Both the position numbers and the translations under genes were made by a program. DNA of 59,720 bases from Candidatus Gastranaerophilales bacterium. Lineage in GTDB: Bacteria > Cyanobacteriota > Vampirovibrionia > Gastranaerophilales > Gastranaerophilaceae. The stretch is taken from NCBI GenBank assembly GCA_944323535.1, contig CALUSW010000003.1, forward strand, positions 1 to 59,720. Direction: 5' to 3'. The notes under the pieces were generated by a model. It was not told the origin of the DNA, made no database searches, and saw only the letters and a program-made list of their open reading frames with translations. Positions 5,730-59,711 of this stretch are shown piece after piece (the first letter of the stretch is position 1; every line of letters begins with the position of its first letter).

Positions 5730-6035
5730 ATGGCAATTTCAAATTTAAGTTTTCAAAATATGTATGCAGCTTCAGGCGGTGCCTCAAATAATATCAATTT
5801 TGGCGGACAGCAGCAGCAATATCGTCCTGTTTCAGATGAAAATGCAAATATTTTTGCTTCGTCATCAGTAGGCGGCGTAAATAGCGGTAACGCCGGATTT
5901 AATCGTGTAAATGGTGTTTCTAAAACAGAAGGTGCTGCCGGATTAGTTGATCGTCTGGACAGAATGGATTCAGGTATACTTAAACCGCAGGCTCAGGACG
6001 AATACAGGGCAAATCATCTTGATTTGTATGCATAA
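5730..6035 (+). CDS. small glycine/asparagine-rich protein, unknown
   Basis: About 101 residues when started at the ATG at 5730, which has AGGAG 11 bases upstream; a TTG at 5706 would add eight residues. The product is low in charge and rich in Gly, Asn, Ser and Gln, with a QQQQ run and a VGGVNSGNAGFNRVNG segment. It ends in a more ordered part (LVDRLDRMDSGILKPQAQDEYRANHL). The N-terminus (MAISNLSFQNMYAA) is not a convincing signal peptide. The composition suggests a disordered or surface-associated protein. No family is recognised. The next gene starts 38 bases downstream on the same strand. Confidence 0.55.
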   Translation: MAISNLSFQNMYAASGGASNNINFGGQQQQYRPVSDENANIFASSSVGGVNSGNAGFNRVNGVSKTEGAAGLVDRLDRMDSGILKPQAQDEYRANHLDLYA

Positions 6036-53718: not shown

Positions 53719-53755
53719 AGGAAAGAAGAGTAAAAAAATAAAAAGTCAAAAAGTT

Positions 53756-53781
53756 AAAAAGACGGAAACCTCCGTCTTTTT
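53756..53781. terminator. terminator-like hairpin between divergent operons
   Basis: Perfect 11-bp stem AAAAAGACGGA/TCCGTCTTTTT, loop AACC, with T5 ends on both strands. Flanking genes point away from it on both sides, so it ends neither of them. It is 96 bases before the first AAA+-cluster start codon, where it could act as an attenuator or end a small RNA. Confidence 0.7.
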
Positions 53782-53876
53782 ATTATGTAAAAAAATGTAA
53801 TCTTTCATGCCAAAAATGGCAAAAATTTTTTATAATTGTTTTTAAAACAGGTTGGATATAAGTAAGGAAGAAATAT

Positions 53877-55592
53877 ATGATTAAAGCATTAACGGATAAT
53901 TTCGATATTATAAAAAGCAGAGAATATCGAATAAATAAAAACTCATTAAACGCACACAATTCAAATCGAAATGCAGGAGAAAATAATCAGTCATTGACAA
54001 AAGCATTAGCGCAGGCATCTAAAAGCAGCGCCGTTGCAGGCATGAATATCGCCAGAAATATAAGTTTTAAAGGGAAAAAAATAACTGAAGTTCCCAGAGA
54101 CTGGAGAATGACAGAAAGCGAAATTACAGATAACGGAGGTGTAAACAGAAATGTCCCTCCTGATCATGAAGCCTCATTTTATAAACCGAATCCGAATGAA
54201 ATCAATGATTTTATAAATGATACAAAAAACAGAAATACATGTCTGGATTTTTATCATGCAACAACAAATTACCATAGTATGTACAGTTATCCTGTTTCAA
54301 AAACGGCTGAACATACAGGAGCTCTATTCATTGATGAAAAAGGAGCATTAACATATTATTCAAAAGAAGAAATGGGAATTAAAGATGATATATCATCAGC
54401 CGAGCTGATATTTTCAGGTTTAAAAAAAGACGGAAGAATTAATGAAGCGGGAATTGTTGCGGAAAAGTATGCACTTAATTCACCGGAAGCGCAATCCGCC
54501 ATTGCGGCGCATTATATAATTGATGGCAGAGAGGATGAAGCTGCCGAAAAATATCCTCATCTGGCGGATAGTATTAATAAAACGGTTGATGACATAAAAG
54601 GCAGGTATTTTATTTCAGAAGGAAGAAAAAGTAAACAGGAGCGTATCCGCGACCTTCTTGCAGAGGGAAGGCTCAAAGAAGCTGTTGAAGAAGGCGTTGA
54701 ATATCTGCCTTCACCTTTAAACGAACAGAAAAAAGAAAATCTTTTAAAAGCGGCAGAATATATTGATGATAATAATTTGCTGGAAATCTGGGCTGACCAG
54801 TACAGAGAATATAAGAAATCAACGGCAGAAGGTTTTCTTGATGATAAAAATGAAGACGACAGAACAGCTTATGCCCTGATTACACTGGGATTATCAGAGG
54901 CTTTAAATCTGGTATCAAAACAGTTTGATAAGCTAAAGCAAATTTCTTCGGCAAATAAAGAAATTGCCGTTCGGCGTGAACTGGTAAACGCGTGCGTTTT
55001 AACTATGCTGAAAGCGATGGAGGACAAGACGGAAGATAACCGTTTAAAATCTTTTGAAATATACAGACTTGAAGAACTAAAAGAACCGGCAAGAGCAAAA
55101 ATCAACAGCAGATTAATAAAACCATTGATAGCATATGCTAAAGATAACTTTGTTAAGATACCTAATTGTGTTATGTTAACCGGCGATAATCCTTTTGTAA
55201 TGAAAGAGCTGATTGATTGGACCGGAGAACTTGCAGGTAAAAATTCAAAAACAAATTATGTAAAACTTCCTTCACTGGGTGATAAAGCACTTATGCAGGA
55301 AAGTATACTGGCTGCGCTTGAAAATGCCGAAGAAAACTATCAAACAACAGGAAAGCGTTCGCTTATCTTTGTAAACGGCATGGAAAAACTTATAAATTCC
55401 TACTCGAACACTAAAGCAGATATTGCAGTAATGAAAGATTTAATGGATAAAGCAGGCAGATATTTTCATTCTACACTTATTTTTTACGCAAAAAATCCGG
55501 AGAATTTAGACCCCGGAACTGCGGTAGCTCACAGAATCGGACTTAAGGTTGATGTTCCGGCAAAGTTTGATAGCAACATAAAAATTATATAG
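53877..55592 (+). CDS. degenerate AAA+ paralogue with helical N-terminal region
   Basis: 571 residues. Near residue 63 is NISFKGKK, the short motif shared at the N-termini of this cluster. Residues about 150-410 are helical and repeat-like (SPEAQSAIAAHYIIDGREDE, GRLKEAVEEGVEYLPSPLNE). The last 150 residues have an AAA+-like pattern without catalytic residues. The P-loop position reads PNCVMLTGDNPFVMKELI (about 430), lacking GKT, and the Walker B position reads TGKRSLIFVNGMEKLI (about 492), with Asn-Gly for Asp-Glu. Then come DIAVMKDLMDKAGRYFHSTL and FYAKNPENLDP (sensor-1-like). AAGGAAG precedes the ATG. The next gene is 14 bases away, and the products probably assemble. Confidence 0.75.
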   Translation: MIKALTDNFDIIKSREYRINKNSLNAHNSNRNAGENNQSLTKALAQASKSSAVAGMNIARNISFKGKKITEVPRDWRMTESEITDNGGVNRNVPPDHEASFYKPNPNEINDFINDTKNRNTCLDFYHATTNYHSMYSYPVSKTAEHTGALFIDEKGALTYYSKEEMGIKDDISSAELIFSGLKKDGRINEAGIVAEKYALNSPEAQSAIAAHYIIDGREDEAAEKYPHLADSINKTVDDIKGRYFISEGRKSKQERIRDLLAEGRLKEAVEEGVEYLPSPLNEQKKENLLKAAEYIDDNNLLEIWADQYREYKKSTAEGFLDDKNEDDRTAYALITLGLSEALNLVSKQFDKLKQISSANKEIAVRRELVNACVLTMLKAMEDKTEDNRLKSFEIYRLEELKEPARAKINSRLIKPLIAYAKDNFVKIPNCVMLTGDNPFVMKELIDWTGELAGKNSKTNYVKLPSLGDKALMQESILAALENAEENYQTTGKRSLIFVNGMEKLINSYSNTKADIAVMKDLMDKAGRYFHSTLIFYAKNPENLDPGTAVAHRIGLKVDVPAKFDSNIKII

Positions 55593-55606
55593 AAAAGGAT
55601 TGCACT

Positions 55607-56812
55607 ATGCGAATAAATAAGATAATAACTTCCCCTCTTAATTTTAAGGGCATAAAAGTAAGTAAAAACCAGACCCCCCTCCCTGAGCGTAATATAGAAT
55701 CTGTCCAGCAGATAATTCTTGATAACTGGCTTAATCAGCTTTTTTTGTATGATGACCGTATAAAAAATGCTTCGCTCCCTAAAACATCGGATATAGACAG
55801 TAAAATAGACTCTGAATATACCTCTTATTCCCCTGGTCTGTTCAGCGATTTAAAAGAAAAATTTACAAAAAAACATGATTCTTTTCAAGCACAGAATACC
55901 TCCCTCGGCAAAAAAATGCGCTGTTCAGGCGAAATGGTAGAGCTGTCCGGCAAAACTGCAAAACAGCTGAAAGAAAGTTATGAATCAGGTTCTCAAAATG
56001 AAACCGGGGCAATAAGTTCAAAAAATACGGGAATTAAAACGATTGCGGGCTATAAGCCCGAACTCGGGGTTTTGCAAAAAGAATTTATAGACAGAGTAAA
56101 AGAAGAAAAAGCCGGCAGTGATATAGATATTTTCGGCAGTATTTTGTTTTTCGGTCCATACAGCAACGGAAAAACACATATTACGGAAGCCGTTGCGCAG
56201 GAGACCGGCTGTACGGTTATTCCGATTTTTGTTATGAAAGGTCAAAATAAAAAAGCAATGCAGGAAATATATAAAGAGGCGGGAAAAAGCGAAGAAAGAT
56301 TTATTAAAACCGGAACAAGAACCATAATTTTTATAGATGAGGCAGATAAGCTCTTAGGTGAGAACTCCCCTGTAACAAAAGAATTTGAAGAGTTCATAAA
56401 AAGCTGCTCTGAAGAATATCACTGCAGCGTTTTTGCCGCAACAAACGAACCGTTAAGCCTCGGAGTTAATTTTAATGACCCGGATATTTTCCCCGTAAAA
56501 ATGTCAATAGATCCGCCAGAAGGAGAAAATATTGAAGAAATGTTTAAATTTGGCTTAAAACAATATAAAACGGCTGATGATATCGATTATAAGGCTCTGG
56601 CGCAAATTGCCGCGCAAAGAGAAGAGGAAACGGGCGGAAAATTCAGCAGCGGACAAATCATTGCAATGTGCGATGAAATGGCTGTAAATTCTGGTTCAGC
56701 GCCTGTAGGAATGCAGATTGCTGCAGAATATATCCAATCTGCCGAGCCTGAAATAACCGAAAAACTCAGCGAAAAATTTAATAACGACTATAAAAATCTA
56801 ATCGGAGAATAA
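55607..56812 (+). CDS. AAA+ ATPase (canonical member of the cluster)
   Basis: 401 residues. The N-terminus MRINKIITSPLNFKGIKVSK carries the cluster's FKG motif, and residues about 20-150 are charged and variable. The AAA+ module spans about 160-390: Walker A FFGPYSNGKTHITEA (Lys189), Walker B RTIIFIDEADKLLG (Asp244-Glu245), and sensor 1 VFAATNEPLSLG (about 284-295). A C-terminal helical lid contains KFSSGQIIAMCDEMAVNSGS. All catalytic elements are present, so this is the likely motor of a complex with the non-catalytic paralogues on either side. It most resembles general FtsH/CDC48-type AAA+ modules; no protease or helicase domain is attached. Confidence 0.88.
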   Translation: MRINKIITSPLNFKGIKVSKNQTPLPERNIESVQQIILDNWLNQLFLYDDRIKNASLPKTSDIDSKIDSEYTSYSPGLFSDLKEKFTKKHDSFQAQNTSLGKKMRCSGEMVELSGKTAKQLKESYESGSQNETGAISSKNTGIKTIAGYKPELGVLQKEFIDRVKEEKAGSDIDIFGSILFFGPYSNGKTHITEAVAQETGCTVIPIFVMKGQNKKAMQEIYKEAGKSEERFIKTGTRTIIFIDEADKLLGENSPVTKEFEEFIKSCSEEYHCSVFAATNEPLSLGVNFNDPDIFPVKMSIDPPEGENIEEMFKFGLKQYKTADDIDYKALAQIAAQREEETGGKFSSGQIIAMCDEMAVNSGSAPVGMQIAAEYIQSAEPEITEKLSEKFNNDYKNLIGE

Positions 56813-56813
56813 A

Positions 56814-58256
56814 ATGCAAATAGTATTAAATCCGGAAACAAAGATAAGCGGAATAAAAAATATAAATACACGGGAGCAAAGGCGCGTAAGTTTTTGCGGA
56901 GTTGATGAATTTATAAAAACAGCGCCTTCCGGAAACTTTGCTGAGATGAAAAAAGCGATACAGATGAAGTACCGTCCCGCAATATCACAATTGAGAGCCG
57001 AAAGAAAAGAAATTGCGGATGCTGCAAGAACAGCAATAATGAGTGAAATTATACAAAGTAAATCTGCAGAAACAATATTATTTAATATTAATTACGAAAA
57101 CGAATTAAAGCAGACTGGCAAAAAATATCCGGTCAGAACAATAAAGGATAAAATTGCATCAAGTTTTTATACAAGAACAGCGTCAAATGTTTTTAAATGC
57201 CCGAATTGTGTAATGCTGGTATCAAAAGATAAAGAAAAAGGCGAAACATTATTCCAAAATATAATAAATTATGTAAAAGCAATGAGAATATACCCGAGAG
57301 ATGACTTTACAAACGGAGAGATATTCGGAACCAATAAAAAGTTTATATTGCCGGAATACAGATATAAACCTGAGAAAGTAACGGATAGAGATTTTATAGT
57401 GCAGAGAATGTATTATCCGTTCAGATTAGACTTTAAGACGCTGGAGGACAGCCTGCCTGCGAATGCCGATAAATTAGCAAGACAGGAAGCATTATTTGAT
57501 GCACTCAATAGAGCCGAAGAAAATTTTAGAAAAACCGGAAGAGGGACGGTGCTGCATGTCAGAGATATGGAGCAGATGATAGACAGCACGAAAAACTCCA
57601 AATCTGATATTGCAATTATGAAAGATTTAATGGATAAATCTGACAGATATTTTCATACTTTAATAACCTTCACAAACACCGACCCGACAAAAAGTGATCC
57701 GGGAACTCTGGTTTCACACAGGGTAGGATATAGGGCAGATCTAGATGCACTTGGAGTTACAAAGTCGAATATAAATGCAGTAAGTATTGGAGAACAACTG
57801 CAAAGAACAACGGAAAAAGCGGAAGAGATATACCGTGAGACCGGAGCGAAGTATGACGAATATACAAAGAGAATAGAGGCATTGCAGGCTCAATGCAGGG
57901 ATGAGGTATCCGAGCTGGAAAAGAAGGTACCGAAGACAAAGCGTTCCCGTATACAACAGAGAGTGAAAAAAACAACACAAAGTTCCGTAAGTAATATAGA
58001 AGAGAAGGGAAAATCAGCAGCGAAAAAGTATTCAGTAAATAAGAAGGCGGCAATAATAGCCGGAATAATTGCCGCAGGAGGCACAGCATTAATAATTTTG
58101 TATAAAAAAGGGATTTTAAAAAAGCTGATACCTCAAAAGAAAACGCCTGCAGGGCAGACAAAACAGCCTGCGGAAAGGAATAAGGCCGTTCAAACAATAA
58201 ATACGCTTCAAGCTTCAAAAGTATTCAGCGATTTTGACTCTTTTATCAAAAAATAA
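56814..58256 (+). CDS. degenerate AAA+ paralogue with C-terminal membrane anchor, tandem copy 1
   Basis: 480 residues. RRVSFCGVDEF near the N-terminus is the cluster motif (F-x-G). The AAA+-like part is about 115-310: NCVMLVSKDKEKGETLFQNI at the P-loop position (no GKT), GRGTVLHVRDMEQMIDSTKN at the Walker B position (no Asp-Glu), and DIAIMKDLMDKSDRYFHTLI followed by FTNTDPTKSDPG. It shares the MKDLMDK-x-x-RYFH block with the 53877 protein. A lysine/glutamate coiled coil (about 325-400) leads to a single membrane helix (KKAAIIAGIIAAGGTALIIL, about 410-430) and a Lys/Pro-rich tail. The start is one base after the ATPase stop. Confidence 0.8.
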   Translation: MQIVLNPETKISGIKNINTREQRRVSFCGVDEFIKTAPSGNFAEMKKAIQMKYRPAISQLRAERKEIADAARTAIMSEIIQSKSAETILFNINYENELKQTGKKYPVRTIKDKIASSFYTRTASNVFKCPNCVMLVSKDKEKGETLFQNIINYVKAMRIYPRDDFTNGEIFGTNKKFILPEYRYKPEKVTDRDFIVQRMYYPFRLDFKTLEDSLPANADKLARQEALFDALNRAEENFRKTGRGTVLHVRDMEQMIDSTKNSKSDIAIMKDLMDKSDRYFHTLITFTNTDPTKSDPGTLVSHRVGYRADLDALGVTKSNINAVSIGEQLQRTTEKAEEIYRETGAKYDEYTKRIEALQAQCRDEVSELEKKVPKTKRSRIQQRVKKTTQSSVSNIEEKGKSAAKKYSVNKKAAIIAGIIAAGGTALIILYKKGILKKLIPQKKTPAGQTKQPAERNKAVQTINTLQASKVFSDFDSFIKK

Positions 58257-58268
58257 TTAAGGAATAAA

Positions 58269-59711
58269 ATGCAAATAGTATTAAATCCGGAAACAAAGAT
58301 AAGCGGAATAAAAAATATAAATACACGGGAGCAAAGGCGCGTAAGTTTTTGCGGAGTTGATGAATTTATAAAAACAGCGCCTTCCGGAAACTTTGCTGAG
58401 ATGAAAAAAGCGATACAGATGAAGTACCGTCCCGCAATATCACAATTGAGAGCCGAAAGAAAAGAAATTGCGGATGCTGCAAGAACAGCAATAATGAGTG
58501 AAATTATACAAAGTAAATCTGCAGAAACAATATTATTTAATATTAATTACGAAAACGAATTAAAGCAGACTGGCAAAAAATATCCGGTCAGAACAATAAA
58601 GGATAAAATTGCATCAAGTTTTTATACAAGAACAGCGTCAAATGTTTTTAAATGCCCGAATTGTGTAATGCTGGTATCAAAAGATAAAGAAAAAGGCGAA
58701 ACATTATTCCAAAATATAATAAATTATGTAAAAGCAATGAGAATATACCCGAGAGATGACTTTACAAACGGAGAGATATTCGGAACCAATAAAAAGTTTA
58801 TATTGCCGGAATACAGATATAAACCTGAGAAAGTAACGGATAGAGATTTTATAGTGCAGAGAATGTATTATCCGTTCAGATTAGACTTTAAGACGCTGGA
58901 GGACAGCCTGCCTGCGAATGCCGATAAATTAGCAAGACAGGAAGCATTATTTGATGCACTCAATAGAGCCGAAGAAAATTTTAGAAAAACCGGAAGAGGG
59001 ACGGTGCTGCATGTCAGAGATATGGAGCAGATGATAGACAGCACGAAAAACTCCAAATCTGATATTGCAATTATGAAAGATTTAATGGATAAATCTGACA
59101 GATATTTTCATACTTTAATAACCTTCACAAACACCGACCCGACAAAAAGTGATCCGGGAACTCTGGTTTCACACAGGGTAGGATATAGGGCAGATCTAGA
59201 TGCACTTGGAGTTACAAAGTCGAATATAAATGCAGTAAGTATTGGAGAACAACTGCAAAGAACAACGGAAAAAGCGGAAGAGATATACCGTGAGACCGGA
59301 GCGAAGTATGACGAATATACAAAGAGAATAGAGGCATTGCAGGCTCAATGCAGGGATGAGGTATCCGAGCTGGAAAAGAAGGTACCGAAGACAAAGCGTT
59401 CCCGTATACAACAGAGAGTGAAAAAAACAACACAAAGTTCCGTAAGTAATATAGAAGAGAAGGGAAAATCAGCAGCGAAAAAGTATTCAGTAAATAAGAA
59501 GGCGGCAATAATAGCCGGAATAATTGCCGCAGGAGGCACAGCATTAATAATTTTGTATAAAAAAGGGATTTTAAAAAAGCTGATACCTCAAAAGAAAACG
59601 CCTGCAGGGCAGACAAAACAGCCTGCGGAAAGGAATAAGGCCGTTCAAACAATAAATACGCTTCAAGCTTCAAAAGTATTCAGCGATTTTGACTCTTTTA
59701 TCAAAAAATAA
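58269..59711 (+). CDS. degenerate AAA+ paralogue with membrane anchor, tandem copy 2
   Basis: Encodes the same 480 residues as the preceding gene, and the DNA appears identical throughout by eye, so the duplication is either very recent, under strong homogenisation, or an assembly product. It starts 12 bases after the stop of copy 1, preceded by AAGGAATAAA. The nine bases after its stop match those after copy 1, just where the window ends, so another copy could follow. Confidence 0.75.
   Translation: MQIVLNPETKISGIKNINTREQRRVSFCGVDEFIKTAPSGNFAEMKKAIQMKYRPAISQLRAERKEIADAARTAIMSEIIQSKSAETILFNINYENELKQTGKKYPVRTIKDKIASSFYTRTASNVFKCPNCVMLVSKDKEKGETLFQNIINYVKAMRIYPRDDFTNGEIFGTNKKFILPEYRYKPEKVTDRDFIVQRMYYPFRLDFKTLEDSLPANADKLARQEALFDALNRAEENFRKTGRGTVLHVRDMEQMIDSTKNSKSDIAIMKDLMDKSDRYFHTLITFTNTDPTKSDPGTLVSHRVGYRADLDALGVTKSNINAVSIGEQLQRTTEKAEEIYRETGAKYDEYTKRIEALQAQCRDEVSELEKKVPKTKRSRIQQRVKKTTQSSVSNIEEKGKSAAKKYSVNKKAAIIAGIIAAGGTALIILYKKGILKKLIPQKKTPAGQTKQPAERNKAVQTINTLQASKVFSDFDSFIKK

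Follow-up and report, generated by a model that had tools for sequence, protein, structure and literature searches.

A bacterial AAA ATPase without an arginine finger is encoded beside catalytically dead paralogues that retain one: a candidate counterpart of Torsin and LAP1

Torsins are ER-resident AAA+ proteins, for which the Clp D2 AAA+ domain has served as a modelling template; they are activated in trans by the membrane proteins LAP1 and LULL1, and an alternating ring of the two kinds of subunit has been proposed (PMC4358337). LAP1 has an atypical AAA+ fold with no Walker motifs and no C-terminal domain, and its strictly conserved R563 lies at the position expected for an arginine finger, an arginine that TorsinA does not have (PMC4358337). 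Three neighbouring genes of a Candidatus Gastranaerophilales bacterium, here called A, B and C, present a similar picture. B encodes an intact AAA+ ATPase without an arginine finger, and A and C encode lidless, Walker-less partners that bear the arginine. Like LAP1 and LULL1, C is predicted to be anchored in a membrane, and activation through the arginine is what we propose here from sequence and structural models. The preliminary description of this DNA recognised no known system with this make-up, a statement that proved too strong, since Torsin and its partners LAP1/LULL1 work on the same principle (PMC4358337).

There are also clear differences. Unlike Torsin, B is bacterial and belongs to the p97/Vps4/CdvC branch, and unlike LAP1 and LULL1, the partners are paralogous to the ATPase and share an operon with it, A is without a membrane anchor, and that of C is near the C-terminus. 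A Pfam search of A, B and C up to E 1 returned no Torsin or LAP1 family, and because B comes from a different AAA branch and no such family was matched, we do not claim membership in either. DNA clamp loaders (bacterial gamma/delta-prime, T4, RFC) are likewise mixed AAA+ assemblies with trans arginine fingers and some non-catalytic subunits (PMC3331839). A, B and C would share this trans-finger principle in a different architecture; clamp loaders carry a collar domain and operate on DNA, whereas nothing at the A-B-C locus suggests DNA. Clamp-loader ATPases retain their own fingers. In p97/Cdc48 and Vps4/CdvC, which B resembles in sequence and fold and A and C resemble in fold, all subunits have arginine fingers, whereas B has none, A and C have no ATP site, and A has no lid. 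A literature search on AAA proteins or pseudo-ATPases of Gastranaerophilales/Melainabacteria, and on bacterial Torsin-like systems, found nothing relevant.

The window analysed is the entire contig C3 (59720 nt) of a 1.9-Mb genome, and the three genes lie at its right end on the plus strand, with gaps of 14 nt (A-B) and 1 nt (B-C). The genes 5' of A encode MBOAT acyltransferases (Pfam) on the opposite strand, and a strong hairpin with T/A tails (53755-53782) separates this divergent operon from gene A, so that A, B and C form a unit of their own. A four-gene AAA+ cluster had been described, but the fourth gene, C', is a perfect copy of the third, with 0 mismatches over the 1443-nt ORF, leaving three different genes. 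The repeat unit of 1455 nt is also without mismatch and extends to the final base of the contig, and gene C is single-copy in the close relative G005; C' could have arisen by recent tandem duplication, or it could be a repeat that the assembler closed without resolving it (an assembly loop).

Table 1. Features of the A-B-C locus, in window coordinates; ORF starts were set mechanically
Feature	Position	Strand	Remarks
Gene A	53877-55592	+	ORF, 571 aa
A, dead AAA domain	55065-55565	+	Walker A changed to GDNPFVMK, Walker B DE to NG, sensor-1 N to K539
A, Lys520	55434-55436	+	top-conserved residue of the dead family
A, Arg553	55533-55535	+	candidate trans arginine finger; aligned to p97 R362
Gene B	55607-56812	+	ORF, 401 aa; catalytic AAA ATPase; lid at the C-terminus, no arginine finger
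B, Walker A GPYSNGKT	56153-56176	+	residues 183-190 (G183-T190)
B, Walker B Asp-Glu	56336-56341	+	D244, E245
B, sensor-1 Asn280	56444-56446	+	N280
B, arginine-finger loop DPDIFP	56477-56494	+	no arginine
Gene C	56814-58256	+	ORF, 480 aa; helical N-terminus, dead AAA domain (residues 105-316), coiled coil, predicted membrane segment near the C-terminus
C, Arg303	57720-57722	+	candidate trans arginine finger; aligned to p97 R362
C, predicted membrane helix	58047-58103	+	residues 412-430; hydropathy only
Gene C'	58269-59711	+	480 aa; exact tandem copy of C at contig end

The product of B is a classical AAA ATPase of the p97/Vps4 type, matching Pfam AAA (PF00004) at E 7.6e-11, above the family cut-off; Walker A and B, sensor 1 and the lid are present, whereas the arginine finger(s) of the second region of homology are absent. 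The three catalytic motifs noted in the preliminary description were all recovered, at residues 183-190, 244-245 and N280. An alignment of B relatives matched p97/Cdc48 by profile comparison (E 3e-32), and the same profile aligned to archaeal Vps4 (4lcb) over nearly its whole length, the C-terminal helical lid included; the top NCBIfam models for B were CdvC and Cdc48, both far under their cut-offs. The finger loop of B reads NFNDPDIFPVK and has no Arg at the positions of p97 R359 and R362, the latter of which is an established arginine finger. When genome contigs were scanned with B, only a clostridial FtsH was matched, a generic AAA similarity, and among viral contigs the B alignment picked up nine AAA relatives, all of them weak (23-27% identity).

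A and C contain neither GKT nor DE. The P-loop Lys, the Walker B Asp-Glu and the sensor-1 Asn are all lost, and this holds across the 92-member dead family. Homology of the dead domain to B was detected by profile-profile comparison (probability 99.6, E 6.6e-24, 151 columns), B was matched directly by an A orthologue (E 5e-8), and A and C match each other at ~1e-29. In the AlphaFold model of A, with pLDDT >95 across most of the core, the N-terminal half is predicted to form TPR-like helical pairs (about residues 174-300) followed by an 80-residue helix (340-421), and a nucleotide-free AAA large subdomain occupies residues 397-563; the protein ends after beta5 and has no lid. Residues 397-562 of A superpose on p97 D1 204-371 with Z 14.5 (156 residues, 2.7 A), and residues ~105-317 of C superpose on p97 D1 with Z 13.0 and 3.1 A, the AAA domain of C bearing an insertion after alpha1. 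The AAA+ core beta1-alpha1-beta2-alpha2-beta3-alpha3-beta4-beta5 is present in both predicted models. Profiles and predicted structures thus assign the flanking proteins to the AAA+ fold and not to an unrelated one, in agreement with the earlier observation that they align with B and have no catalytic residues. Downstream of its AAA domain, C continues with a coiled coil, the predicted membrane helix and a tail; one paralogue had been said to end in a membrane anchor, and the segment is there, but ~50 residues before the end. Predicted membrane segments, called from hydropathy only, were commoner in dead partners (23/92) than in intact ATPases (4/102).

Both R553 of A and R303 of C fall on p97 R362 at the ends of the structural alignments, with the last stretch taken as ungapped, and the sequence register concurs, placing the dead 'LDxxAxxPHRV' opposite the canonical 'LLRSGRF'. 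In a census of motifs, the intact class (n=102) had the P-loop K in 97 members, the Walker B E in 91 and the sensor-1 N in 95; in the dead class (n=92) these signatures were gone, and the finger R was found in 84 of the 89 members aligned there. When conservation was ranked over 73 non-redundant dead domains, K520 and R553 (A numbering) stood first and second among 140 columns, above every hydrophobic core position. An arginine anywhere in the finger loop was present in 24 of 72 non-redundant intact ATPases, compared with 65 of 70 non-redundant dead partners with an arginine at the exact finger position (Fisher 3e-14, with phylogeny ignored; all loci come from one order, and the 70% filter reduces phylogenetic non-independence but does not remove it). 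B shares its missing arginine with two thirds of its relatives. Neighbouring genes were then compared as pairs: in 53 the partner alone had the arginine, in 21 both had it, in 1 neither did, and in 1 only the ATPase did. Of the 54 pairs (34 loci) whose ATPase is without the arginine, 53 therefore have it in the dead partner. The complementarity is not strict throughout, since about one third of the intact relatives, those of L092 and L106 among them, keep a loop arginine and 21 pairs are two-sided.

The dead-domain profile had matches in 104 of the 286 genomes and 27 of the 50 genera of the order, often in several copies and up to 10 in one genome, some of the weaker matches being intact ATPases of the same family. 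All 45 positives in a phylum-wide sample (292 genomes, 115 genera) came from this same order, which supports the earlier suggestion of a machine special to the lineage. To judge from 53 loci picked solely by a dead-domain match, dead and intact genes are kept together in relatives: an intact-type AAA gene was present within 2.5 kb on the same strand in 50 of them and abutted the dead gene in 26. Gene order varied (dead-intact-dead, intact-dead-dead and others), the lengths of the dead partners were highly variable, and the close relative G017 had A and B with no adjoining C, so that a membrane tether is not always present. The dead domains group in a single clade (support 0.98), indicating one loss of catalysis, after which the dead form persisted and diversified. 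Among the intact ATPases, about nine changes on the tree are needed to account for where the finger arginine occurs. Trees of neighbouring partners were correlated (Spearman 0.39, 0/2000 permutations), a correlation that may come partly from shared species history.

We consider it likely that A, B and C assemble into a single hetero-oligomeric AAA machine with catalysis divided between proteins, A and C activating B in trans. For ATP binding B would rely on a P-loop, Walker B, sensor 1 and lid of its own, and because it has no arginine finger, a homo-oligomer of B is expected to show little or no activity. For their part, A and C, as AAA large subdomains without a lid, should be incapable of binding ATP in the usual mode; they would offer R553 and R303 to the ATP of an adjoining B and so switch on hydrolysis, which would occur solely at B-A or B-C interfaces. 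The partners might also set where and when B acts in a putative remodelling role, C by anchoring the complex to the membrane, and A by means of its helical-repeat and coiled-coil parts, which probably bind the client. The dead paralogues had previously been described as scaffolds or regulators; that they are non-catalytic AAA proteins stands, but the description was too vague, since they retain an arginine finger that is absent from the intact ATPase, which points to trans-activation. It also seems fairly likely that this is an independently evolved bacterial counterpart of Torsin-LAP1: a family of AAA machines found across the order, with the ATP site divided between an ATPase that has no finger and nucleotide-free paralogues without a lid, which would donate the arginine and some of which are predicted to be membrane-anchored.

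Dead AAA subunits frequently play a structural role, and the finger arginine sits at the subunit interface in any AAA ring, so A and C could be non-catalytic spacers or adaptors in a mixed ring with B, their arginine merely holding the domain or the interface. The retention of an own arginine in some B relatives would fit such a pure scaffold. We nevertheless regard it as unlikely, because the arginine is one of the two most conserved residues while the other catalytic positions have drifted, because B is without a finger arginine, and because a structural role leaves the exact fall on p97 R362 unexplained. It is more doubtful still that the dead paralogues stand outside the ring as ATPase-derived clients, adaptors or decoys under its regulation. 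Their differing N-terminal parts (helical repeats, coiled coils) and greatly varying lengths might be expected of such proteins, but the alpha/beta core in its entirety, and with it the finger loop, has been preserved despite great divergence, and the genes remain next to the ATPase.

The patchy distribution within the order might suggest a system of phage defence or of mobile elements that uses an AAA sensor, as might a faint resemblance of B to IetA (PADLOC E 2e-4), itself a generic AAA similarity. This is very improbable, and we rejected it: the cluster has no effector gene, A and C match nothing in PADLOC, B matches curated defence models only through that generic similarity, and a single genome can hold as many as 10 dead-domain matches. 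Searches of plasmid and phage records found no relative of A, and they lend no support to a phage or plasmid origin.

A short F-x-G motif near the N-terminus had been noted in all of these proteins, and A (64-66), B (13-15) and C (27-29) do have it. In a census of ~390 kb of the genome plus the window (383 ORFs), however, the form [IVL][SN]F-x-G occurred 10 times in the first 80 residues and 3 times in the remaining 102,415 residues, and it was also found in unrelated proteins (window 5730-6035, L148:715-4677, L143:6126-9044, L142:8305-9840 and L151:18750-19361), one of which carries an alpha-amylase domain. The motif is thus genome-wide, and we rejected it as a marker for the complex; throughout the lineage it may serve as an N-terminal tag or as a signal for sorting.

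Other protein families were observed around AAA genes of the order. At loci L062, L092, L093, L106, L111, L133 and L135, a recurrent family of 360-450 aa lies beside dead/intact AAA clusters and adjoins a second AAA protein of 700-850 aa; several members have F-x-G and a membrane segment, and the member searched against Pfam had no match. HEAT-repeat proteins are encoded next to the AAA genes in two other families of the order (L064:2574-6167, 1197 aa; L068:1043-2077, 344 aa). In another branch of the order (L113, L115, L117 and L118), clusters of several AAA genes include a different dead member, in which the P-loop Lys is replaced by Asn, the GRF/SRF arginine is retained, and sensor 1 is degenerate in three of the four.

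Within a single bacterial order, these results identify a large and so far uncharacterised gene family. Activation of Torsin by a dead, membrane-bound AAA-like protein is usually regarded as a eukaryotic peculiarity. If the arrangement proposed here is true, a separate bacterial origin from the p97/Vps4 type would show that dividing an AAA site, one part in an ATPase and the other in its tethered activator, is a repeatable solution, and would provide bacterial proteins in which site splitting could be tested, with ~90 natural partner sequences at hand.
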